Positions 2,170 to 19,292 of a DNA stretch of 20,120 nt are shown piece after piece. This stretch comes from a virus. Under the pieces are notes generated by a model, which was given only the letters and a program-made list of their open reading frames with translations, had not been told where the DNA came from and did no database searches. The translations under genes were made by a program, and so were the position numbers. The stretch is from positions 1-20,120 of IMG/VR virus record IMGVR_UViG_3300032287_003532. One strand, written 5' to 3'. Each line of letters begins with the position of its first letter. Within the stretch, counting starts at the first letter, position 1.

Positions 2170-2663
2170 TTGTCAGCATCGAAAACACAACCATGACGCT
2201 ATCGCTCGTCAAGGTGTCTCGAGAACTGTCGAGTTTGTCAGCGAATTTGCAGGTTACTAGCAACAAGATGCGTCCTACACTGTCGTTTCTAAGAAACGTA
2301 GTCGAGTGGATGCAAAAGCAAGGGATACACGACGCGACCATCACATCCGCATGGCAACTTTGGAAAGTAGTCTCGGATGCTACAAACCTGGCACGGTCGA
2401 ACGAGGAACCGAACGCCGAGGTTGCGTATTGGTATGGCGTCGATCCGCATGCGATCAGCGAGTCGCAGCAACTTGGGTTACTCGAAAATTTGCCTAAACT
2501 TATTGCGCAAGAACGAATCTATCACGGCAACTATTCGCCATCGGATCCGGCTGGAGTCTACGCATTGTTTATGTCTGCGTTCGATGATGAGAACGTAGCA
2601 CGCAAAGCACAATTGGAAGCAGCCAAGCACATGGTCGATGCAGCAACAAAGAGGTTGAAGTAA
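2166..2663 (+). CDS. Unknown phage protein (165 aa)
   Basis: A mostly helical 165-aa protein without recognised domains, signal peptide or membrane segment. It begins at the ATGA overlap with the preceding gene and its TAA shares a base with the ATG of the portal fusion at 2663 (TAATG), so all three appear to be translated in a chain. The C-terminal third is an amphipathic helix rich in Ala and Lys (residues about 140-165). Sitting directly upstream of the portal it could be a head-tail connection or portal-associated factor, but there is no motif to support that. What is certain is only that it is a real gene in the operon. Confidence 0.75.
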   Translation: MIVSIENTTMTLSLVKVSRELSSLSANLQVTSNKMRPTLSFLRNVVEWMQKQGIHDATITSAWQLWKVVSDATNLARSNEEPNAEVAYWYGVDPHAISESQQLGLLENLPKLIAQERIYHGNYSPSDPAGVYALFMSAFDDENVARKAQLEAAKHMVDAATKRLK

Positions 2664-5600
2664 TGTCACTCACGGAACGAGCGCTAGCCGTCCTAAAACA
2701 ATGGACGACTAAAACCAACGAGCCTGGCAAACTGCCATTGCCTACCGAGAAGGAACGCAAGACTCGACAACATACGCATAGTTATGTCCATCAGGACTGG
2801 TACATGCACGCTCGAGACTTGCCTCTGTTTACGTTCCAGACGATTCGGGAAATGCTCAGGGATCCACAGGTGCGGCTATGTCTTGCGATGCGCCAAGCTC
2901 CTATCTTTGGAGTTGAGTTCGCTTACATCGACGGCGTTGGCCAAGACGGCAAGCCTACTTGGGTGCCAGGCGTGAAAGCACGAAACCCGATTGTCGCGGC
3001 ATGGGTGCAAAGGCAACTGCAAACAATTTGGAACAGCTATTTACCGCACTTGCTCGCGTCTCAAACATGGGGTTGGGCAGGCGGCGAAGTTACGCTTCGG
3101 TTGACCGAATCGAACCTCATTGAAATCGATACGCTTCATCCGAGACACCCTAAAGATATTCGCATGCTCGAGCTGCACAGTAGCGGGGATCCATGGGGAA
3201 TCGAGGTGAAGAACGTTGCGGGTGAAGGAACCGTACAACTTCCTTTCCCTTACAGTTACTTCGTTCGATTCCGACCAGAGAACGGAGAGAAGTACAGTAG
3301 CTCGGTATTGATCGGTGCGTATTCGCCATGGGCAGACAAGTGGCTAAACGGTGCGGCGCTCGATACACGACGACTCTACATGCACAAAGACGCCTACGGT
3401 GGCATGAAAGTAGGCTACCCTAGCGACCAGCAAGTTTACGTGAACGGACCAGATAGGGATCCTGTTCCCGCGCGAGACGTAGCGCTTCAGATTGCGGAAC
3501 AACGCTACTCGGGTGGAACGGTAGTCTATCCGACCGACCACGACATGAACGGAAATGCAAAGTGGACTATCGACGATGCAACGGTCGCAAGTAATCCACA
3601 GCATATCCTTCAGTATCCGAAAGACCTCGACAACGAGATTCGCCAAGGGCTCGAGATTCCAGACGGAGCGATCAGCAACGATGGAAGCGGCGCATGGGAG
3701 GGTAAATCGATTCCACTCGCAGCGTTCTTCTCGGGGCTTGATACTTGGGTCACGCAAATACTTTGCGATATCAGGAAAACCCTAGACCCGCTCGTTCTGT
3801 TGAACTGGGGTACGGCAGAAGAGTACGAGATCACTCACAAGCCTCTCGGACTCCAAGCCATGGAGCAGCAAGGGGCGAAACGTGACGGCAATGGCGCGAT
3901 GGGTCCAATGGATCCAATGCAGCAACAACAAATGGATCAGCAATCCGATCCGTATCGAATGTCCATCGATCCAGTAGCAGCCGTAGGACGCGGGGCATTG
4001 AAAGCGGTCGATGTTGTCAAAGCAGCCAGGACAGCTCTAGGGTATGACACCGACATCACGACCATGGCGGCCATGAGAGCGCCAAAGGGGTACTCGAAGG
4101 ACAACCCTCTGGTTATCAACAACAAGCCCTACGTGGGTGGAATGTATATTCCAGGCGATCAACTGGAGCACGCGACCGGCGAACAGATGGAGGAAATCAA
4201 GTCGGGGGTGAAGAAAGCAGATACTCCCGCCATTGAAGAAAAACCAAGCGATATCAAGCCAGAATCACCAAAGTACGAAGCGGTCGAGACTGGACCAGGA
4301 ACTGCGCACGAAAAGACATCGAAACTCATCGCAAACAGGCGAAGCGTAAAGCTGAAGGATGGGCACGCTATCAAAGTGCAATACGATCGCTCGAGCAGAG
4401 ACAATACAGGCTATCGCGTAACGCACACGGATCCTGACAAAAACAAAACAGAACATCCCGAACGATTCGCTACCCTCGAGGAAGCCGCGAGTTTTGCTGC
4501 GACGATGCTGCAAAACAAACAGAGAGAAGCGAAATCGCAAAAACAAGAAGCGGAACCAACCAAACCCGCTCAATCCAAGCCTATCGCTACAACGCGAGAA
4601 AATGGAACTCCAGTCGATCCGACATCGAAGGACGTATTTACAGTCCCTGTCGGTTCTCTCAAGACGGACGCAAAGAGATTCCAGTACAAAGTCAAGGATA
4701 TCGACGCGGACGGGGTAACGCAGGAATTGAAGAGTGTTGGGAAGTGGAACCATGAACTCGCTGGCGTTTTGTTGGTGTGGAGAGATCCTGAGAATGGAAT
4801 TGACTATGTGGTGAATGGTCACCATCGCCATGATTTAGCGAATCGACTCAGGGCGGATTTCCTCAATGTGCGATACATCGACGCAAAAGATGCACTGGAA
4901 GCACGAGCCCGCGGCGCTCTAGCAAACATCGCAGAGGGCAGAGGATCCTCGATTGATGCGGCTAAGTATTTGCGTGATACGGGTCACGATGTTGAGCACT
5001 TAAAAAACGCTGGCATAAGCCTATCTGGCAAGGTTGCATTCGAAGCGACGATCCTCAAAAACCTTGCTGACAAACCGTTCCAGATGGTAACGCAGGGAAC
5101 CCTCGAGGAATCCAAAGCGATCGCAGTAGCGAAGCACTTGAAAGACCACGATCTCCAAAACGCACTGTTCAAGAAACTCGAGGACAGGGAAGAAGACGGA
5201 AAGGAATGGAACACTCGAGAGATTGAAACAGCCGCCAAGAAAATGGGCAACGCTGGAAAGTATGTTGAGAAAGGACAAGATTTGTTTGGAATGTTCGAGG
5301 ATGAACACTCAACATTTGACCAAGAAGTGGAATTAGAGGCGCATGTTGCAAGATTCCTCGGGCAAGAAGCGAGAGACTTCCGAGCTATTTCCAGCCAGAA
5401 ACGTGCAGACCGTGTTTCGGATGCAGGTAACACACTTGCCGTCGATGAGAACCTGAAGCGAGCCATCGCAGCCGAAGCAGCCGCGGCAAACTTTGAACGC
5501 GAAGCTGGATTGCGTGGTCCGATCTCAGCATTGATTAAAGAACATGCGGCAGAGTTAGCGCAGGCGAAAACGAAAAAGCAAAAGGAAGCCGTCAAGGAAA

Positions 5601-7069
5601 AGACGTTCGCGGCCATAAAGGAAGCGCAACGAGCCATGGGAGAAGGCAGTTCGCAGGCGATCGCGGAATCAGCAAGTAAGCCGCCAAGCGACGCCCGCGC
5701 TGCAGCTATGTCAAAGTTTGAAGAACGCAACAATCCAATCCAATCCCCTGGCATTTCCATGCCGTCACCCACCAAGCCAATCGACGAAGCCGATGAAGGA
5801 GACCAACTCGGGCTATTCGGCGAAGCATTCAAGGCACCTTCGAAGAAATCTAACCTCAAGGTTGAAGATCCAACGAGAGCGAGACAGGGCGGATTGTTCG
5901 ATACGAAGGGGAACGCCGATCAAATGGATTTGTTTGGTGATGGTGTCATGCCAGACGATTTGGTCTACAAACCGCAGCCTGAACCAGCAAAGCCCGAGGA
6001 ACCACAGCAACCGAAGGACAACGACGGAAATGAATTCGCGCCTGGCGTTTCTTATGGTTCCATTCCAACCTCCGCAGCTTATAACGCTCACCGCAATACA
6101 AGTTTTTCTCCAGAACGGAGAGCAAAACAACGCCAAGAAGATTTCGCCCATGAATTGAACGCAACATACGCAAGTCTTAAACGATCTGCTAAAGGGGATG
6201 AAAACAAGCTCCAGATCCTAGAAACTGAATGGCCTCGTTATTTGGAGCGAGCAAAAGCCAATTACCTAGCAGCACTGAGCGCCGATAGTCGAACCGCTTC
6301 CACGATGATAACGGGAGGCTCGAATTTCAACGTAGCACGCAACCGGAAAAAACTGGACGCAGCCCAAAACAAATGGGAAGCGTACAGCGAACACAGCGAC
6401 AAGGGAGAGTCGGCTATCTGGAAAATGATGCACCCTGAGTTAGCTCCCAAGAAAATTGGTGGCGCTGACACCGGAAGCTATATCGAAAAGGAAATCGCTC
6501 GAAGGCAAAAAATTCAAGACGACATGAAGACGGTAAATAAGGTTCTTCAAAAGGCTGGAATCTTTGGATACAACCGCCAAGGAGTGGCGTATGCGGCTGG
6601 TCACACACCGGAAACCACCGTTCAAAAGCTCATGGAAATCGAGGGGATGGACGAAGCTACAGCAAGGCAATTGATTCGCCCCGATGTAATGGGTCACATT
6701 GGTCACGAAAGCTACATGCTCACGAACAACAACGCCAATTTGCAGCGGTATAAAAAACAAGCGCAAAAGCAATTGGCATTCGAAAGGGAGGCAGAAGCAG
6801 CCTCCGAAAGTGGCGATGAAGCAACTTCCCACCAATTTGACGGCGGCATGGTGCATTTAGATTACGATGACAATAGAATCCGAATCGTTCACGACACGAA
6901 GCCGTCGAAGGAAGTGATTTCCAATCTAAAATCCAACGGGTTCAAGTGGTCGCCGAAAAACAACGCATGGCAACGCCAATTGACTAGGGCGGCAAAATTC
7001 GCTGCTCACAGCATAACGGGCGTAGAGCTTGAGAAACTGACACCGAAAGGAAACAATGACAATGAGTAA
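2663..7069 (+). CDS. Giant fusion: DUF935-like phage portal + ParB/DdrB-like domain + polyvalent C-terminal module
   Basis: 1468 aa, about three times a normal portal. Residues 1-400 resemble Mu gp29/DUF935-type portals (DPQVRLCLAMRQAPI at 67-81, then MHKDAYGG, YPKDLD and an AWEGKSIPLAAFF stretch). A Met/Gln-rich linker (about 400-430) follows. Residues about 659-770 look ParB/DdrB-like, with the core NGHHRHDLA at 718-726. Residues about 850-1100 contain QDLF, QLGLF, QGGLF and QMDLF motifs resembling sliding-clamp-binding peptides. Residues about 1140-1450 match a module known from phage and plasmid giant proteins: SNFNVARNRKKLD, LTNNNANLQR (1353-1362) and GFKWSPKNNAWQRQLT (1426-1441). Portals form the DNA entry/exit ring of the head; ParB-type and polyvalent domains often act on DNA or host factors after entry. 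No frameshift or stop breaks the fusion. The portal assignment is fairly confident; activity of the downstream domains is inferred. Confidence 0.7.
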   Translation: MSLTERALAVLKQWTTKTNEPGKLPLPTEKERKTRQHTHSYVHQDWYMHARDLPLFTFQTIREMLRDPQVRLCLAMRQAPIFGVEFAYIDGVGQDGKPTWVPGVKARNPIVAAWVQRQLQTIWNSYLPHLLASQTWGWAGGEVTLRLTESNLIEIDTLHPRHPKDIRMLELHSSGDPWGIEVKNVAGEGTVQLPFPYSYFVRFRPENGEKYSSSVLIGAYSPWADKWLNGAALDTRRLYMHKDAYGGMKVGYPSDQQVYVNGPDRDPVPARDVALQIAEQRYSGGTVVYPTDHDMNGNAKWTIDDATVASNPQHILQYPKDLDNEIRQGLEIPDGAISNDGSGAWEGKSIPLAAFFSGLDTWVTQILCDIRKTLDPLVLLNWGTAEEYEITHKPLGLQAMEQQGAKRDGNGAMGPMDPMQQQQMDQQSDPYRMSIDPVAAVGRGALKAVDVVKAARTALGYDTDITTMAAMRAPKGYSKDNPLVINNKPYVGGMYIPGDQLEHATGEQMEEIKSGVKKADTPAIEEKPSDIKPESPKYEAVETGPGTAHEKTSKLIANRRSVKLKDGHAIKVQYDRSSRDNTGYRVTHTDPDKNKTEHPERFATLEEAASFAATMLQNKQREAKSQKQEAEPTKPAQSKPIATTRENGTPVDPTSKDVFTVPVGSLKTDAKRFQYKVKDIDADGVTQELKSVGKWNHELAGVLLVWRDPENGIDYVVNGHHRHDLANRLRADFLNVRYIDAKDALEARARGALANIAEGRGSSIDAAKYLRDTGHDVEHLKNAGISLSGKVAFEATILKNLADKPFQMVTQGTLEESKAIAVAKHLKDHDLQNALFKKLEDREEDGKEWNTREIETAAKKMGNAGKYVEKGQDLFGMFEDEHSTFDQEVELEAHVARFLGQEARDFRAISSQKRADRVSDAGNTLAVDENLKRAIAAEAAAANFEREAGLRGPISALIKEHAAELAQAKTKKQKEAVKEKTFAAIKEAQRAMGEGSSQAIAESASKPPSDARAAAMSKFEERNNPIQSPGISMPSPTKPIDEADEGDQLGLFGEAFKAPSKKSNLKVEDPTRARQGGLFDTKGNADQMDLFGDGVMPDDLVYKPQPEPAKPEEPQQPKDNDGNEFAPGVSYGSIPTSAAYNAHRNTSFSPERRAKQRQEDFAHELNATYASLKRSAKGDENKLQILETEWPRYLERAKANYLAALSADSRTASTMITGGSNFNVARNRKKLDAAQNKWEAYSEHSDKGESAIWKMMHPELAPKKIGGADTGSYIEKEIARRQKIQDDMKTVNKVLQKAGIFGYNRQGVAYAAGHTPETTVQKLMEIEGMDEATARQLIRPDVMGHIGHESYMLTNNNANLQRYKKQAQKQLAFEREAEAASESGDEATSHQFDGGMVHLDYDDNRIRIVHDTKPSKEVISNLKSNGFKWSPKNNAWQRQLTRAAKFAAHSITGVELEKLTPKGNNDNE

Positions 7070-8795
7070 CGAACCCAATAAGCGTAGCGAGTGGTGGATG
7101 ACCCCTGAGCAAACCGCAAGAGTTGAAGCAGGTCACCGCGAAATGGTAGCTATTCAAGCGCTGAATCTACCTGTCATTCCGCTTCCGCCAAAGAAAAGGG
7201 ACTGGATAAAAGAGGCAGAGAAACTCCGCTACACAAGGCCACATGCTTGGGAACAGTTGTACTCGGACTCGATCGAAATTATCGATCCTGATTTGTTCGA
7301 GGAACTCAACCAAAGCGGCGAGTTTGATGCGTTCGTGAAAGTCAAAGTCTCGGAGGCCTTGGATTCTTACCAACTGTATTTGCATAACGACATGGATCCC
7401 CAGAGAGCCAAAGAACTGGCGCTCAGTGAACTGATGGGAATGGATACAGATGACGACGATGAAGGAGAAGACGATGAGGACATGGATCCGATGGAATGGG
7501 ATGACGAGGACGACGAAGAGGAAGACAAGCCAAAGCGCATGGCACTCCAAGTCGGGACCACGATCAACAAGAACGGGCAACAGTATCGCCTCAATGAAAA
7601 CCACCGCTGGACGAAAGTGGAGCGTGCTGGGCAATCCGCACCACAGACGGCTAGACCGCAACAACAGCAACAGCAGCCACAGAAACCGCAACAACCTCAG
7701 CCACAGCGACCAGTAAAGCCAAACGCGGCACCAAAACCGCAAAACAGGGCTCCGCAAGCTCCCATCGCTCCAGCTCAACCGAAACCACAGGCAGCGCCGC
7801 AAGCTAGCCAATCGGTATTCCAGGGGCAGCACAACCCGCAAGTCGATTCCGATCCGAATCACGATGGTATAACGGACCGCGCTCGAGTTGGTGTTCCGGC
7901 GTTCGATGTACCTCCACCACCGAAGCGAGTGACGCGAATCCCTGGATTGACGGGCGTGGCGAAACGTGCCGAATCGCACTTTGCTGAGGCATTCGAGAAG
8001 GATCCTGATTCGCTGACCGATGAAGCGGTCATTATGTTCACTGCACACTCGGAACCAGGAAAGCCCGTTACATTCGAGACGGATGCGTGCAAAAAGCAGT
8101 CTCCTTTCTGGAACTCCGCAGACTTGGATGAAGACCTAGAGCAAAGAGCAAAAAACCGAGCAACACTAAATCTTTCGCTACACCAGACGGCTAACGCAAT
8201 TTGCAAGCGTGCATTTGTCAAGCATCTGGACACTATTCCCGAGGGTTCGGAGATCCTGGTTACGGTAGGAGGATGCGGGGCTGGAAAAGGCTACGCGCTC
8301 AAAAACGTTCCGCAAGCCTTGGAAATGAAGAACCGCGCGGCAGTCGTTTGGGATTCGGCTGGAGATCAGAACGCCACGGAAAACCCTTGGATTCTACAGG
8401 AAGCTCGCAAGCGTGGTCTAAAAGTAAACTACGTGTTCGTCCATGCCGATCCTAATACCCAATGGGCTAATCCCGAACGCGGAGTTGTAAAGCGTGCTCA
8501 GGATCCAAACGACGGGCGAATGGTCGATGCGATGGTATTTGCGGATTCGTATGCGATCGGTGCAAAGAACCATCATGCGTTCGCTGAAAAGCACAAGAAC
8601 GACGGCGACGTAAGGTGCGTCTATCTCGTCAACGGAGCACAACCAAAGCTACTTGATACAATGCCACCAGAGGCATTGAAAGTCGATAGGCGAGCGCTTG
8701 CGAAGTTCGCCGTAGATTATGTGAACGGAAACCCCGATGTTCCTGAGCACATTCGCAAGGGTGCAACGGACGGTGTAAAGATTTGGCAAGACTAA
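7056..8795 (+). CDS. Zeta-toxin-like P-loop protein with acidic and Pro/Gln-rich linker
   Basis: 579 aa in three parts. An N-terminal helical region (1-125) is followed by a strongly acidic stretch (about 129-157, mostly D and E). A Pro/Gln-rich disordered linker (about 190-250) comes next. The C-terminal domain (about 300-579) has a Walker A motif GGCGAGKG at 405-412, then VWDSAGDQ and a VNYVFVHADP...PERGVVKRAQ...GRMVDAMVFADSY segment typical of zeta/PezT-like kinases in phage proteins. Canonical zeta toxins phosphorylate UDP-N-acetylglucosamine; whether this one does is unknown, and no epsilon-type antitoxin gene is seen beside it. The first ATG (7056) overlaps the portal-fusion stop; a second in-frame ATG at 7062 lies better spaced from AAAGGA at 7046-7051, so the true start may be two codons later. 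It probably acts as an injected or head-associated effector, given its place between portal and head genes. Confidence 0.75.
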   Translation: MTMSNEPNKRSEWWMTPEQTARVEAGHREMVAIQALNLPVIPLPPKKRDWIKEAEKLRYTRPHAWEQLYSDSIEIIDPDLFEELNQSGEFDAFVKVKVSEALDSYQLYLHNDMDPQRAKELALSELMGMDTDDDDEGEDDEDMDPMEWDDEDDEEEDKPKRMALQVGTTINKNGQQYRLNENHRWTKVERAGQSAPQTARPQQQQQQPQKPQQPQPQRPVKPNAAPKPQNRAPQAPIAPAQPKPQAAPQASQSVFQGQHNPQVDSDPNHDGITDRARVGVPAFDVPPPPKRVTRIPGLTGVAKRAESHFAEAFEKDPDSLTDEAVIMFTAHSEPGKPVTFETDACKKQSPFWNSADLDEDLEQRAKNRATLNLSLHQTANAICKRAFVKHLDTIPEGSEILVTVGGCGAGKGYALKNVPQALEMKNRAAVVWDSAGDQNATENPWILQEARKRGLKVNYVFVHADPNTQWANPERGVVKRAQDPNDGRMVDAMVFADSYAIGAKNHHAFAEKHKNDGDVRCVYLVNGAQPKLLDTMPPEALKVDRRALAKFAVDYVNGNPDVPEHIRKGATDGVKIWQD

Positions 8796-9104: not shown

Positions 9105-9686
9105 ATGAATGCGAACTTTGAAGAATCGAAACATCCGAGAGATAGCGATGGGAAGTTCGCTGCGAAAGTAGATTCTTCTCTAGTTAGCGAGTTTTTGAAA
9201 AACGGTCAGGCATCAGCTTATCGCATTCACGACGGAAACCGCGATTTACCAGCAAGATCGCGAAATGAATGGTCGGATAGTTCGGAATACATGGAAGGTG
9301 TAAGCGGATATTCTTCACTGTCTGCTGCAGTAGCTGACATGCTGCTAGGTGCGGCAGAGTCGGTTACTGGAGAAAACTACACCAAACGAACTAAGAATCC
9401 AATGCTTATTATGCTGCATGGGAAGCAACTGGATGCCCCAGGCGCAGAGTACGTTATTCCTAGCCCAAAGGTTTCTGTAGTTCTGTCAAAAGCAGAACTA
9501 GAAAAAGCAATGCGAGACACTTTAGAGGAATCCGATAAGCAATTGCCGATTGATGAGATTCTCGATCAATATAGCTTTGACGATAGCGACCTTGAAGCAA
9601 TTGCTATGGATGCAGCGAAACACAAGTACAAGCAATTAGATCAAGACAAAGCGGTTGAGAAACTAACCATTAGAAAGCCGATGTAG
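9105..9686 (+). CDS. Unknown phage protein with HPRDxxGKFA N-terminus and C-terminal RKPM tag
   Basis: A 193-aa protein starting one base after the previous TGA. Near its N-terminus is HPRDSDGKFAAK, a short motif often found in phage head-module and polyvalent proteins. The centre carries an alpha/beta-looking segment (NPMLIMLHGKQLDAPGAEYVI), and the C-terminal half is acidic and helical. It ends in AVEKLTIRKPM, matching 8 of 11 residues of the end of the preceding protein. By eye its DNA is somewhat more AT-rich than the portal gene, so it may be a later addition. The function is not recognised; the shared tail suggests that both small proteins bind the same partner or are processed alike. 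Confidence 0.75.
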   Translation: MNANFEESKHPRDSDGKFAAKVDSSLVSEFLKNGQASAYRIHDGNRDLPARSRNEWSDSSEYMEGVSGYSSLSAAVADMLLGAAESVTGENYTKRTKNPMLIMLHGKQLDAPGAEYVIPSPKVSVVLSKAELEKAMRDTLEESDKQLPIDEILDQYSFDDSDLEAIAMDAAKHKYKQLDQDKAVEKLTIRKPM

Positions 9687-9688
9687 CT

Positions 9689-10696
9689 ATGGATGCGTCG
9701 ATCAAACAAACCGACAGGATTGTTGGCAGGGCGTTGATCGGCGCTGAAGCTCTATTCGCGGACTTACGGTTCAAGATCGTCGATAGTCTCTACCGGCAGT
9801 TTGGATCAGTTCCGAATGAATGGCTTTTGCAAGCGACTCGGAGCGCGATCGCAAGAACGACACCGCTTCTCATCGACCACATGAGCGATTCAGAACTCGC
9901 AGGATGGATCGGTGGCATGGACAATCTTTCCAGGCAATTCCCCAGTTGGGTTTGGGAGGAATTCCAGACAGGAGTCAGGCAACCGCCATCTCCCCCGAGT
10001 TTTCGATTGACTAGCCTTTTTAATGACCAGCCAAAGCTCCGTTTTCCACTCCTAGAGGAAGCGGCCAGTAAATTGGCACAACGGAACGCATTCACTCGAG
10101 AACAGTGGGACGCGGCAAGCGATGAGGCCAGGAAGAAAGCCTACATGATTACGGGCGATCTTACTGAGGACACTATCGGTCGCGTTCGGGACATGCTTTC
10201 TGCCGATGTCGATGAGGGTACTTCCCTCCGATCGTTCAAAGCTAGGCTAGGGGATGTTCTCGAGAAATCAGGATTGGGACCAGCGAGAGTAGAAACGATC
10301 TATCGAACGAACGTCCAAGGTGCATTCCGAGACGGTCGCGAAACACTCGCTACGGATCCAATCGTTTCGGAGTTGTTCCCGTACCAAGCCTATTTGCCGA
10401 TCGACGATGCCAGGACTCGAATGACTCACTTCCAGCTCGGGCAACTCGGGCTAAACGGCACAGGGATCTATCGTCGAGATGATCCGTTTTGGGATCGGTT
10501 CACCCCGCCATGGGATTACAACTGTCGATGCGGCGCTAGATTAATGACGATCGCCGCAGCCGCACGCGCAGGGGTTAGGGAGGCTAAGGAGTGGTTGGAC
10601 ACTGGAGTCGCTCCTAAACAACCAGAATGGAGGTTTGAACGGATACCATTTCCAGCCAATGAGGGTTGGGGTTCTCGAGGATTGGTGGCAGCATGA
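9689..10696 (+). CDS. Mu gpF-like phage head morphogenesis / minor capsid protein
   Basis: 335 aa, a normal length for this family. The C-terminal domain carries the recognisable Phage_Mu_F pattern: RVETIYRTNVQGAFRDGR (about 200-217), DDARTRMTHFQL (about 239-250), and the terminal motif WDRFTPPWDYNCRC ending at C281. In Mu and SPP1-type phages this protein sits in a few copies near the portal inside the capsid and is needed for head assembly or DNA delivery. Its presence just after the portal fusion supports the portal call. The start ATG follows the previous stop by two bases; the stop overlaps the next ATG (ATGA at 10693). The N-terminal half is helical and less conserved, as usual. Confidence 0.88.
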   Translation: MDASIKQTDRIVGRALIGAEALFADLRFKIVDSLYRQFGSVPNEWLLQATRSAIARTTPLLIDHMSDSELAGWIGGMDNLSRQFPSWVWEEFQTGVRQPPSPPSFRLTSLFNDQPKLRFPLLEEAASKLAQRNAFTREQWDAASDEARKKAYMITGDLTEDTIGRVRDMLSADVDEGTSLRSFKARLGDVLEKSGLGPARVETIYRTNVQGAFRDGRETLATDPIVSELFPYQAYLPIDDARTRMTHFQLGQLGLNGTGIYRRDDPFWDRFTPPWDYNCRCGARLMTIAAAARAGVREAKEWLDTGVAPKQPEWRFERIPFPANEGWGSRGLVAA

Positions 10697-12505: not shown

Positions 12506-13186
12506 ATGACTGAAGTTGGAAATTTCGAATTTGAATCCGGTGATTTCGATGATTGGAGATACGAGGTCCATTTTCAGGAAAACAGAGCATGTCCGCAGTG
12601 TGATTGCTATTGCACTGATCGCAATGGAGCGACACTGGATGTAAAGTGTATTCCGAAACGTTTATACCTCACGATTACCGCAGACAATTGCCCTGGCATT
12701 GAGGGGACGTATGAAATGAACCAATGTCATGTCGATGAAATTCCTCTTCTGACTCCACCTGTAACGCAATACTGGCCGTTAAAGCTCGAGTGGTGCAGCG
12801 AAGTAGTGCTGTGTCCAGAAGCTGGAATTGAAAGCCATGCGTTAGCGTTTATCCTTTTGTGTCGAACGACATCATTAACGGATCGTCCGCAATTTCTACT
12901 TACCGCGGTTCGATTTGGTGGTACTGCTTACTTGTGCTCGACGCTCAATTTCGATCCAGACGATGTGGACACGGTGTACAACACAACTCCAGATAACGAC
13001 ATTCCGCCGAGCGCAGGGGCAAATGCAAAAGCCACATCGACTTGCATACCTTTTAATCTAGAGTTTCCGTGGCTGACCGAAAAGAACTTTGAATGCAGCG
13101 GCGTAGGTGCTTGTTGTGGAGGCACGATTGTTTCGGAGGGTGGTGAATCAGACCCTTCTTACTTTTATCTGACTATTACAGAATGA
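12506..13186 (+). CDS. Cys-rich virion-type protein (15 Cys in 226 aa)
   Basis: Starts one base after the previous stop. The opening NFEFESGDFDDW resembles the entrance of carbohydrate-binding or LamG-like beta sandwiches. Fifteen cysteines are spread over the chain, including CPQCDCYC near residues 29-36 and ACCGG near the end. No transmembrane segment or signal peptide is seen. With the preceding protein it forms a pair of Cys-rich, beta-type products at the end of the late operon, where phages commonly encode fibres or spikes. No named family was recognised. The next gene overlaps its stop (ATGA) and encodes a protein with a sulfhydryl-oxidase-like signature, which may be meaningful for the many cysteines here. 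Confidence 0.72.
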   Translation: MTEVGNFEFESGDFDDWRYEVHFQENRACPQCDCYCTDRNGATLDVKCIPKRLYLTITADNCPGIEGTYEMNQCHVDEIPLLTPPVTQYWPLKLEWCSEVVLCPEAGIESHALAFILLCRTTSLTDRPQFLLTAVRFGGTAYLCSTLNFDPDDVDTVYNTTPDNDIPPSAGANAKATSTCIPFNLEFPWLTEKNFECSGVGACCGGTIVSEGGESDPSYFYLTITE

Positions 13187-13656
13187 ATACTGATTGCGTC
13201 TGCCCTGTGGCTGGTTGGTGCGATCGCAACAAACGACGCATGATAGGACGATTGCATGAGTTGTGCCAAACAAACGCAGTTTATTGCGAGGCTTTTCGAG
13301 ACGACGAAAAAAAGACATCGAAACAAAATGAATCAAGGATAGCGAGAGAGCTTGCTAGGGAAGAACGTGATAAACAACTACTAAATATTTATCATGCTCT
13401 ATGGCAAGAACTACACACCAAAAAAGACGCAACCAAAGAATGGTTTGCAAGCTGGCTAAAGCGAATCCCGAGCCTTGGATGCGAATGCCGCAACGCATTC
13501 GAGGCGATAATGAAAGCGAATCCTCCGAGGTTCGACGATTGGTGGAGATGGACTTGGGAGGTCCATAACGCGGTCAATCGCAAGCTCGGTAAGCCTGAGC
13601 TATCTTGGGAAGATTCCGTGGCGATTTGGGGTTGGTACACCCTGGGTGTACTTTGA
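13183..13656 (+). CDS. Putative Erv1/ALR-like protein (HNxVNxxLGKP motif)
   Basis: 157 aa. The C-terminal two thirds follow the order of an Erv/ALR FAD sulfhydryl oxidase: WQELH (W75 to H79, compare WxxLH), GCEC at 100-103 where ALR has CxxC, and HNAVNRKLGKP at 129-139, near-identical to the ALR HNEVNRKLGKP FAD-contacting motif, 26 residues after the second Cys (about 29 in human ALR). ALR enzymes pass electrons from substrate thiols to oxygen. Here the redox pair is CxC rather than CxxC and the first helices are shortened, so it may be a weak or inactive relative. The N-terminus has a second Cys set (C5, C7, C13, H25, C28, C35) that could bind zinc. The start is set by an ATGA overlap with the Cys-rich gene. 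The last codons overlap a palindromic arm-like site of the att region. Confidence 0.6.
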   Translation: MNTDCVCPVAGWCDRNKRRMIGRLHELCQTNAVYCEAFRDDEKKTSKQNESRIARELAREERDKQLLNIYHALWQELHTKKDATKEWFASWLKRIPSLGCECRNAFEAIMKANPPRFDDWWRWTWEVHNAVNRKLGKPELSWEDSVAIWGWYTLGVL

Positions 13657-13890
13657 GGTGTACTGGTACTTTCTGACAAGTTGTGAAGGTGTATCGGCAC
13701 ACCAAAAACGGAGACGCACCAAAGAAAACACAGCACATAACCTCAAGCTAAGGAACGCAATCTACTATCTTCGGAACCGAGGGTTGAAGGTTCGAATCCT
13801 TCCGGGCGTACTAATGATTTGCAAGGGATACTCCCGATTCGCGGTTTTGTGCGGTACACCCAGCTATGATTTAACCGGGTGTACTGTACT
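13635..13890. other. Probable phage attachment site (attP) with tRNA core and arm-type repeats
   Basis: A 43-bp tRNA 3' fragment (13768-13810) is bracketed by copies of GTACACCC/GGGTGTAC. On the left is a perfect 17-bp palindrome GTACACCCTGGGTGTAC (13635-13651), then AGGTGTACT (13656-13664) and a weaker AGGTGTATC (13687-13695). On the right are GTACACCC (13854-13861) and GGGTGTAC (13877-13884). A crossover core inside a tRNA gene with repeated integrase-binding sites on both sides is how attP sites of tyrosine-recombinase phages are built, and the integrase gene lies 0.4 kb away. An integrated prophage end would normally have arm sites on one side only. The reading as attP is an inference from this layout. 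Confidence 0.7.
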
Positions 13891-14253: not shown

Positions 14254-15348
14254 CTAAGAGTTTCCAAATAGCCAAGCGTGAACCGTGTCCGTCGCTTTGT
14301 GTAGTCGGTTCTCTCGCAAGAGTTGCCTGTATTGCCCTGGAACGCTGTCGTCAACGTGACCCATGATCGCATCGACGGCGATCTGATCGGCGCACTCCGA
14401 TGCATAGGTGGCGAACGTTTTTCGTAGCCAAGAGAACCCGCCGCCCTTTACCCCCGCCATTTCTCGGATGGATCGGAAGTATTTCGCGACTTCGGCGTTT
14501 CCGGCCGTAAGTGGTTCGCCATCGAAACGGAGGAAGCATTGCGGATTCTTGGAGTCAGGACGGATCGCCAACCAGGATTCAAGAGCCCCAATCGTTTCCG
14601 GCCACAGCGGACAACCGCGCTCGATCTCCGTCTTTTCCCGAGGAAGCTCCATGACTCCCTTGGCGATCGCAGCCTTGGCAATTTTCAATGGCAGTCGTTC
14701 GATGTCATCGTTTTGGAACGCGCAGTTGATTCCCAGGAGGATCGCGGATCGCATTTTAATCCCGCACTCGTTTAGGATCGCATGGATGTCGGGAGCCGTG
14801 AAAAGCATTTCCCCTCGGGCGCGACGATATCGCCTAGCGACTTTCCTCGACGGTTTCTTAAACGTGGAACCGAAATCAACTTCCTCGATCAGCTTCGCTT
14901 GCCGCAGCCATTTAAAAGCAGACTTGATTCGCGTAGCCTCGTTCCCGCACGCTACAGGGTTGTTTCGCGCTGCGTAGGCATTCTGGTAGGAAGTGAAGTC
15001 AAGTACCGACAGCGATTGAATGGTGCGGTTTGAACCGAAGAATTTCGCGAACGCGGAAAGAGTGCGTTTGTAGTCGGTAAACGTTCGAATGGCTATCGTC
15101 TTCGCGTCCGCGTCTTTCTTGCGCTGGGTGAGGTAGATGTTGAATGCGTTTTTGATCGAAAGTCCATCGGAGCTTGGCAACGCTGGCGTCTCTTGCGATC
15201 GCATCCACTCTTGGTACTCTCGAAGCGCTCCTTCAGGATCCTCCCACCGACCAAAGTATTTCGTACTGCCGTCTACCTTCTTTGCCCACTTGCCTCGTGA
15301 GTGAGCGAAGAGAGGAAAGTCAGGACGTGGTTTGTCTGGTTTGGTCAA
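14254..15348 (-). CDS. int: Tyrosine recombinase / phage integrase
   Basis: I chose TTG 15348 (MTKPDKPRPDFPLF), 364 aa, because a strong GAGGAGAGGT site precedes it and its TTG overlaps the TGA of the ORF upstream (TTGA). An upstream TTG at 15399 would add 17 residues. The N-terminus has the GKWAKK...YFGRW block seen in planctomycete-type integrases, followed by a core-binding helical domain. The catalytic domain shows K239 (REKTEIE), R309 (WLRKTF), GH at 330-331 and the nucleophile Y340 (GQYR). The usual first Arg box is replaced by GINCAFQNDD (206-215), and the HxxR His is Ser306. The enzyme would integrate and excise the element at the tRNA-Arg core nearby. It lies in a leftward operon with the excisionase gene. 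Confidence 0.92.
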   Translation of the reverse strand: MTKPDKPRPDFPLFAHSRGKWAKKVDGSTKYFGRWEDPEGALREYQEWMRSQETPALPSSDGLSIKNAFNIYLTQRKKDADAKTIAIRTFTDYKRTLSAFAKFFGSNRTIQSLSVLDFTSYQNAYAARNNPVACGNEATRIKSAFKWLRQAKLIEEVDFGSTFKKPSRKVARRYRRARGEMLFTAPDIHAILNECGIKMRSAILLGINCAFQNDDIERLPLKIAKAAIAKGVMELPREKTEIERGCPLWPETIGALESWLAIRPDSKNPQCFLRFDGEPLTAGNAEVAKYFRSIREMAGVKGGGFSWLRKTFATYASECADQIAVDAIMGHVDDSVPGQYRQLLRENRLHKATDTVHAWLFGNS

Positions 15349-15539
15349 CCTACCTCTCCTCGGTAGATTTGATCCTTCGTGCCGGTGGGGTAAAACCAAC
15401 CACCCATCGCAAGAGGACTTTTCGCTTCGGCAATGCCGGAGGGGTCAACGTGAGTGTAGATCATGGTCGTTCTGTTGTCGGAAGCGTTCACACGACCTTG
15501 CGCAACACTGCCAAAGTCGCTTCTCTTGCTTTTCGCCAT
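15345..15539 (-). CDS. Small ORF coupled to integrase, with integron-integrase-like tail motif
   Basis: A 64-aa frame whose TGA overlaps the integrase TTG start. It begins inside the 3' end of the upstream HTPGPW-family gene (52-bp overlap) and has only a poor ribosome site, so its expression is uncertain. Residues 24-43 read TTMIYTHV, nine residues, SPL. That is the same spacing as the nucleophile-Tyr tail of integron integrases (TTMIYTHV...RSPL). The rest of a recombinase is missing. It may be a remnant of an earlier integrase that now serves as a leader ORF coupling translation to the present one, or the likeness may be chance. Confidence 0.4.
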   Translation of the reverse strand: MAKSKRSDFGSVAQGRVNASDNRTTMIYTHVDPSGIAEAKSPLAMGGWFYPTGTKDQIYRGEVG

Positions 15540-19087: not shown

Positions 19088-19115
19088 ATGGAATCTTTTG
19101 CATGGAGTGTTGGAG
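19088..19115 (+). promoter_or_regulatory. GGA motifs in the csrA leader (possible CsrA autoregulation)
   Basis: Three GGA cores, in ATGGA (19088-19092), ATGGA (19102-19106) and TTGGA (19110-19114), lie in the 28 bases before the csrA start; the last is the Shine-Dalgarno itself. CsrA binds ANGGA in loops and commonly represses its own or neighbouring messages by covering the ribosome site. A further ATGGA (19276-19280) overlaps the ribosome site of the next gene. Binding itself is an inference. Confidence 0.4.
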
Positions 19116-19292
19116 ATGTTGATTCTCAGTAGGAAAGCAATGGAGCGAATTCGAGTCAACGATGACATCTCGATCGTCGTCTTGGAGATTCGCGGCGATA
19201 AGGTGCGATTGGGTTTTGAGGCATCAAAGGATGTTCAGATTCATCGCCAAGAGGTCTACGACGCTATTCAGCGAAATGGAGGTGAAGCGTGA
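19116..19292 (+). CDS. csrA: Carbon storage regulator CsrA
   Basis: 58 aa from ATG 19116, with GGAG just upstream; an upstream TTG at 19098 would add six residues not found in the family. MLILSRK, VLEIRGDKVRLGFEA, and VQIHRQEVY follow the CsrA/RsmA pattern closely, and the two RNA-binding arginines R6 and R44 are both kept. The usual Gly after SRKx is replaced (SRKAMERI). CsrA is a small dimeric RNA-binding protein that blocks or stabilises mRNAs with GGA motifs. Here it is the first recognised gene of a chain of overlapping small genes; a phage copy could redirect host translation or regulate this operon. Confidence 0.93.
   Translation: MLILSRKAMERIRVNDDISIVVLEIRGDKVRLGFEASKDVQIHRQEVYDAIQRNGGEA

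Follow-up and report, generated by a model that had tools for sequence, protein, structure and literature searches.

The window, i.e. the whole stretch of 20,120 nt analysed here, contains a gene in which a Mu-type portal, a ParB-fold domain and a polyvalent-protein domain, as recognised by sequence and fold comparison, are joined in a single frame, with exchange of the added regions among relatives. The gene is probably to be read as a portal whose C-terminus carries an exchangeable payload, injected together with the genome. Portals are usually seen as structural ring proteins of some 400-550 residues, whereas the family described here reaches 2952 residues, which are mostly exchangeable payload. 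The fusion had been reported in a first-pass annotation of the window, and that observation proved to be real, and wider in scope than was claimed there: the portal seems to serve repeatedly as a carrier of payloads. Of the assignments made there, the portal, the ParB-superfamily domain and the polyvalent C-terminal module were recovered, while the qualification "DdrB-like" does not hold in its strict sense. The relevant features are listed in Table 1.

Table 1. Features of the fusion gene and of its neighbours, with positions in the window.
Feature	Position	Strand	Basis
Whole fusion gene: portal, linker, ParB, linker, C-terminal polyvalent domain	2663..7069	+	ORF and order in relatives
Mu-type portal domain, residues 39-403	2777..3871	+	PF06074, solved-portal profile matches, family HMM
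Portal-payload junction motif APKGYSKDNPLVINNKPYVGGMYIP, residues 473-498	4079..4156	+	motif class common to payload starts
ParB/sulfiredoxin-superfamily domain and helical DNA-binding-like region, residues 659-989, NGHHR at 718-722	4637..5629	+	phrog_21, AlphaFold, Foldseek
Linker with three QxxLF motifs (residues 1048, 1075, 1087)	5804..5935	+	motif reading
C-terminal polyvalent-protein domain, residues 1134-1455	6062..7027	+	phrog_19458, IMG/VR relatives, AF2
P-loop (VGGCGAGKG) kinase-like protein, encoded directly after the portal gene with a 14-base overlap	7056..8795	+	P-loop; PF06414 below cut-off
193-aa gene between portal and MuF, beginning with junction motif HPRDSDGKF	9105..9686	+	motif
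MuF minor head protein, 335 aa, without payload	9689..10696	+	PF04233

Structure of the fusion gene

Translation of the gene gives a single ORF of 1468 aa, which opens with an ATG and contains zero internal stops, so that the uninterrupted frame originally claimed is confirmed. Homologues keeping the same fusion, a search proposed in the first-pass annotation, were found: the order portal-ParB recurs in about a dozen distinct IMG/VR relatives, and relatives at 60-70% identity keep it in one frame, which shows that the fusion is not an artefact. Nine relatives were collected by scanning with the portal part of the 1468-aa protein; ParB lies in frame behind the portal in L010, L012-L015 (1950 aa), L016/L017 (1212 aa) and L009 (1869 aa when counted from an upstream start). 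Further members, namely L018, L024, L026, L104, L194, L200, L206-L208, L210, L211 and L215, came from profile scans. Single-protein scans with the full protein and with its C-terminus gave no close relatives, and the full-length protein produced zero portal or ParB matches in Pfam and the PDB, where fragments and family profiles were needed.

With portal, ParB and C-terminal domains in one chain, and MuF encoded downstream here as in relatives, the product corresponds to the definition of a polyvalent protein (at least two functionally disparate domains in a late-gene or virion context). The HExxH zincin metallopeptidase motif, related to self-processing and common, though not obligatory, in polyvalent proteins, is absent from the 1468-aa protein.

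A portal had been proposed for residues 1-400. In agreement, the Portal_Mu profile PF06074 reaches 30.5 bits on residues 1-433, where the curated cut-off is 23.9; the match is missed when the full-length 1468-aa protein is scanned against Pfam. The same cut-off is passed by the relatives L014, L016, L026, L099 and L100. A profile built from ten related portals gave weak but specific matches to six solved portal proteins, including 5ngd and 4zjn (E about 0.02), and MuF (PF04233) is found 2.6 kb downstream. None of 50,697 named phage records matched this portal subfamily, when L105 was used as a probe.

The core NGHHRHDLA, at residues 718-726, had been taken as evidence for a ParB domain. N718, G719, H720, H721 and R722 are invariant among five fused relatives, and NGHxR is invariant (N60, G61, H62, R64) in an alignment of 34 diverse ParB copies. 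In phrog_21, a "portal protein", the last third of the profile matches residues 651-991 with E 3.8e-90. A ParB-superfamily assignment is upheld by a weak match of this region to phrog_1033 (ParB) and by Foldseek comparison of its AlphaFold (AF2) model (pLDDT 87.4) with the PDB, where the top matches are all ParB, Noc, KorB or Spo0J (best E 3.6e-5, prob 1.0), sulfiredoxin and PadC being ranked below. Over the whole domain the TM-scores are moderate, which is to be expected when about 330 residues are matched to about 190. An alignment of the ParB sequence profile with ParB of Caulobacter (E 0.29) covers the stretch from GERR to the helix-turn-helix. The label "DdrB-like" applies only loosely, since the ddrB-ParB profile PF18763, which works as a control on the giant protein L117 (119.6 bits), matches 0 of the 34 ParB copies at E up to 1; strict DdrB membership was rejected, and the closest solved structures are the canonical ParB/Noc/KorB. 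Fold and motif suggest that the domain may have catalytic or DNA-binding activity.

The linker beyond ParB contains its three QxxLF motifs within about 45 residues, two more being found in L100; those of the window resemble beta-clamp-binding peptides. In the C-terminal region, the GFKWSP..AWQR module described earlier turned out to be real and recurrent. Residues 1192-1452 match phrog_19458 with E 6.6e-25; its name, primase, is the library's label for a putative function. Residues 1137-1452 have 386 relatives in IMG/VR, and of 86 ORFs carrying the domain 28 exceed 1000 aa and 50 are below 450 aa. The AF2 model is very confident (pLDDT 94.9), and no fold match to it was found in the PDB. The domain is an unnamed polyvalent-protein module recurring inside giant phage polyvalent proteins, and this company points to a role early in infection.

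Payload exchange among related portals

In terms of domain content, the portal is retained among relatives, and the remainder of the protein is replaced. Across the family of the window portal, the extension following the portal domain varies between 73 and 2567 aa. In L014 it contains a zincin (HEWGH), LPD1, 2H/Acb1-like, SAP and ParB domains, in L009 the same set without 2H, and in L016, L017 and L018 ParB together with a Zeta-like kinase, the fused Zeta scoring above the Pfam cut-off. A DNA methylase-SNF2 helicase region lies behind the portal in L195, L198, L207 and L212. For that of L212, 40 named phage records cover at least 80% of the query, with identities of roughly 31-34%; the RefSeq name is "DarB-like antirestriction". 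Both ParB and methylase-SNF2 are present in L207 (2935 aa), while the longest portal, L198 (2952 aa), ends with a stretch read as P-loop kinase-like.

On the portal-domain tree, from which incomplete or doubtful rows were left out, the ParB label needs at least six changes, by gain or loss. L102, L104 and L105 share 99% identity over 4.6-9.9 kb, yet only L104 contains ParB, in-frame losses being located directly after the portal helix in L102 and L105, relative to L104; this difference is to be taken with caution, as these are metagenome contigs and assembly-type indels occur elsewhere (L060/L062). L024 and L025 share a ParB tail with 98.6% DNA identity, fused to the portal in L024 and encoded by a separate ORF behind a different portal in L025, so that the portal-ParB fusion is not obligatory.

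Some loci of the set deserve a separate mention. Portals of 2351-2952 aa are found in L198, L195, L204, L207 and L212, and those read have a DarB-like methylase-SNF2 behind the portal. The Acb1-like/2H domain inside the portal fusion of L014 (8013-13865; PF23474 28.3 bits, PF13563 39.2 bits) might possibly provide a virion-borne anti-CBASS activity. In L026 (8062-14895), three large overlapping or adjacent genes directly follow the portal-ParB gene, the first matching ART-PolyVal PF18760 with 45 bits; the run is possibly a payload operon.

The junction between portal and payload

The junction motif is found after the last helix of the portal, and also between payload units. It occurs in the forms APKGYxKxxPLVIxGxxYxGGxFIP, DHPRGxxGRF and GHEHKGKGxGGGQF, usually with a methionine just before. 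Of 30 distinct occurrences, 25 are in portals, two directly behind a MuF domain (L194, L211) and three in neighbouring payload-type genes, among them the 193-aa gene at 9105-9686 of the window, a count which is not an unbiased survey since the loci were gathered through portals and ParB; none was found elsewhere among 5098 ORFs. The motif may represent a processing or loading signal. An internal translation start at the conserved junction methionine was rejected, no Shine-Dalgarno-like sequence being found upstream. In L194 (13223-19138) and L211 (14717-19096), MuF carries a payload of >1100 aa behind the motif, and the neighbouring portal is loaded too.

The same ParB domain on other carriers

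Lambda-type portals are fused to the same ParB in L059, L061, L063, L066, L069 and L071 (PF05136, 360-383 bits) and, according to a local HMM, also in L067, L070, L079 and L081. A second Mu-type portal group carries it in L075 (PF06074, 290 bits), L074 and L080, and a 1734-aa MuF protein (L068:2846-8050) contains a Zeta_toxin kinase (168.7 bits) and two ParB domains. These fusions, to lambda-type portals, to the second Mu-type group and to MuF, evidently arose independently. The presence of the same ParB on several portal groups and on MuF suggests selection for placement at the head vertex. In L060 and L062, which represent one phage type, the lambda-portal/ParB gene is split by frameshifts judged to be assembly-type indels, a warning on single metagenome contigs.

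No portal-ParB fusion was found among the 50,697 named phage records; the ParB domain occurs in only 21 of them, within large late proteins encoded behind tail genes, such as a large virion-region protein of the podovirus Prochlorococcus phage P-SCSP1. L005 (NC_023841.1), which bears the name of a Dunaliella (green alga) virus and is classed within Caudoviricetes, carries the same phage ParB, and its host label looks doubtful. A scan of a genome collection detected ParB in three contigs only, two of Nostoc and one of Verrucomicrobia, which do not contain the window portal type; its absence from 688 genomes of the phylum of Nostoc and of Verrucomicrobia is uninformative as to host.

Neighbouring genes

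The product of the kinase-like gene following the portal gene matches PF06414 with E 0.0093, below cut-off, and homology to the L016-type fused kinase was rejected, as no BLAST similarity was detected. The MuF protein scores 33.6 bits with PF04233 (cut-off 29.6) and is conserved downstream of the portal in relatives; MuF homology reaches its very end, so it is not of the MuF-toxin type. MuF proteins loaded with payload behind a junction motif were seen in L194 and L211 only.

In the rest of the window, a 157-aa product (13183-13656) matches the Erv1/Alr sulfhydryl oxidase profile (PF04777, 36.8 bits), unusual in a phage, and a small ORF (19098-19292) resembles CsrA by eye. A tRNA-3'-end-like sequence, GGTTCGAATCC... 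(13770-13812), lies near a tyrosine integrase (14254-15399) and is likely the attachment site of a temperate phage. RNA families and complete tRNAs were not found within the 20,120 nt.

Interpretation

In phage P22 the portal C-terminus forms a crown/barrel pointing into the capsid, where ejection proteins are clustered (PMC4992974). The window portal would likewise assemble as a ring at one head vertex with its C-terminus facing the capsid interior, and the extension of roughly 1065 residues is likely to be located inside the head, beside the DNA. The payload, either intact or after a peptidase has released it at the conserved junction, would leave the head with the genome; in the new host, ParB would act on DNA by NTP-regulated binding, clamping or nicking, and would protect or set up the incoming genome, as the P1 Dar/DdrB proteins do. 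Injection, cleavage and ParB activity are steps which we infer. Injection with proteolytic release is plausible, being backed by payload exchange, by the shared junction motif and by the parallels with P1 Dar, and the payload types (zincin with LPD1 and 2H/Acb1, Zeta-like kinase, DarB-like methylase-SNF2, ART-PolyVal) match injected early-infection functions. The best reading is that of a portal-tethered injected payload, analogous to P1 Dar/DdrB or to MuF cargo, built onto the portal. As relatives swap the tail for other, often anti-defence-type, modules, the portal doorway looks like a delivery platform.

A wider proposal, to which we give somewhat less than an even chance, is that this uncultivated phage group uses the portal as a general carrier: a dedicated junction peptide, sometimes placed after MuF, would take up counter-defence modules that can replace one another, the largest being an entire DarB-like methylase-helicase per subunit, and a site-specific cut or an unfolding would then free them for ejection.

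ParB might instead stay attached to the ring of portal subunits and act on phage DNA, by binding, clamping or nicking it, in packaging, end-holding or ejection, with nothing injected. A fold of the DNA-binding/CTP-clamp type, SAP-type motifs preceding ParB in relatives and the occurrence of ParB on portals of three groups would suit such a role, which we nevertheless hold to be unlikely: ParB is dispensable for the portal, since close relatives lack it and have kinases, MTase-SNF2 or next to nothing instead, and the same domain is also found in large internal-virion-type proteins and on MuF. Distinctly less probable is that the payload is cut off in assembly and acts in the producing cell, for instance on rival DNA or host replication, the portal serving as an expression carrier; conserved junctions and the zincin peptidase of the L014 type are in line with this, but action in the cytoplasm would need no carrier portal, and MuF, which likewise belongs to the inside of the head, has this junction and payload too. 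The canonical ParB fold could also reflect a plasmid-partition ParB fused by chance and segregating a plasmid-like prophage, a very improbable origin, given that in several portal groups ParB is fused downstream of a late head gene and that the integrase and the tRNA-end-like sequence near it indicate that the phage probably integrates. An artefact, i.e. two genes joined by assembly or sequencing error, the frameshift or misassembly of which the first-pass annotation had warned, or a frame open by chance, is scarcely credible: although the source is a metagenome contig and L060/L062 show assembly-type indels, the same one-frame order in many separate contigs and samples speaks against such a join.

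If the payload is indeed ejected with the genome, portal extensions, and MuF extensions with the same junction, would guide metagenome searches to counter-defence proteins that are still unknown, and the junction motif would become a testable processing or loading signal. A physical question would then be how up to twelve large portal-tethered domains fit into the head and get out of an intact ring.

Comparison with known systems

In the part of Iyer et al. 2017 (PMC5512222) considered here, portals fused to PBECR, 2H and inorganic pyrophosphatase (InPase) domains are noted. Portal-effector fusion is thus a known kind since 2017, of which the window gene is a variant, and it does not hold that such domains always sit on separate proteins. 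A portal-ParB fusion was not found in the literature searched, the same part of PMC5512222 naming other portal fusions; what is new here is the portal as a recurrent payload carrier, with ParB among the payloads. Like the polyvalent proteins described there, the window protein combines several unrelated effector-type domains, including one of the ParB superfamily, in one late-gene protein; it differs in that the portal is the recurrent carrier, with many payloads, the longest of 2567 aa, and with one junction motif common to them. According to the same source DdrB, which has a ParB domain, undergoes processing prior to its packaging, whereas the window ParB is not of the Pfam ddrB-ParB type.

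The Dar proteins of P1 (DarA, DarB, DdrA, DdrB, Hdf, Ulx) are co-ejected, and they shield the DNA against type I restriction as it enters the cell (PMC12810830). The window family shares with them two payload types, ParB (DdrB) and the DarB-like methylase-SNF2, the latter on the portals of relatives, with the reservation that the window ParB is not matched by PF18763. P1 encodes separate internal proteins, DarA-Hdf being placed on the capsid wall (PMC12810830), whereas the window family fuses its payloads to the portal.

The window domain resembles the CTP-dependent DNA clamps ParB, Noc and KorB in its fold, in the GxxR-type NGHxR motif and in the helical region downstream, and differs from them in being attached to a portal. 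The PHROG family phrog_21, a "portal protein" with a profile of 1362 positions, contains the same ParB in its C-terminal part (about 951-1351), of which its name makes no mention; there, ParB follows a PF05136-like, lambda-type portal half and not the Mu-type portal of the window. MuF polymorphic toxins (Jamet et al. 2017, PMC5576092) offer a further parallel, as head proteins encoded beside the portal with a variable C-terminal effector. In the window the carrier is the portal and MuF is bare (335 aa), while in L194 and L211 MuF is loaded as well.
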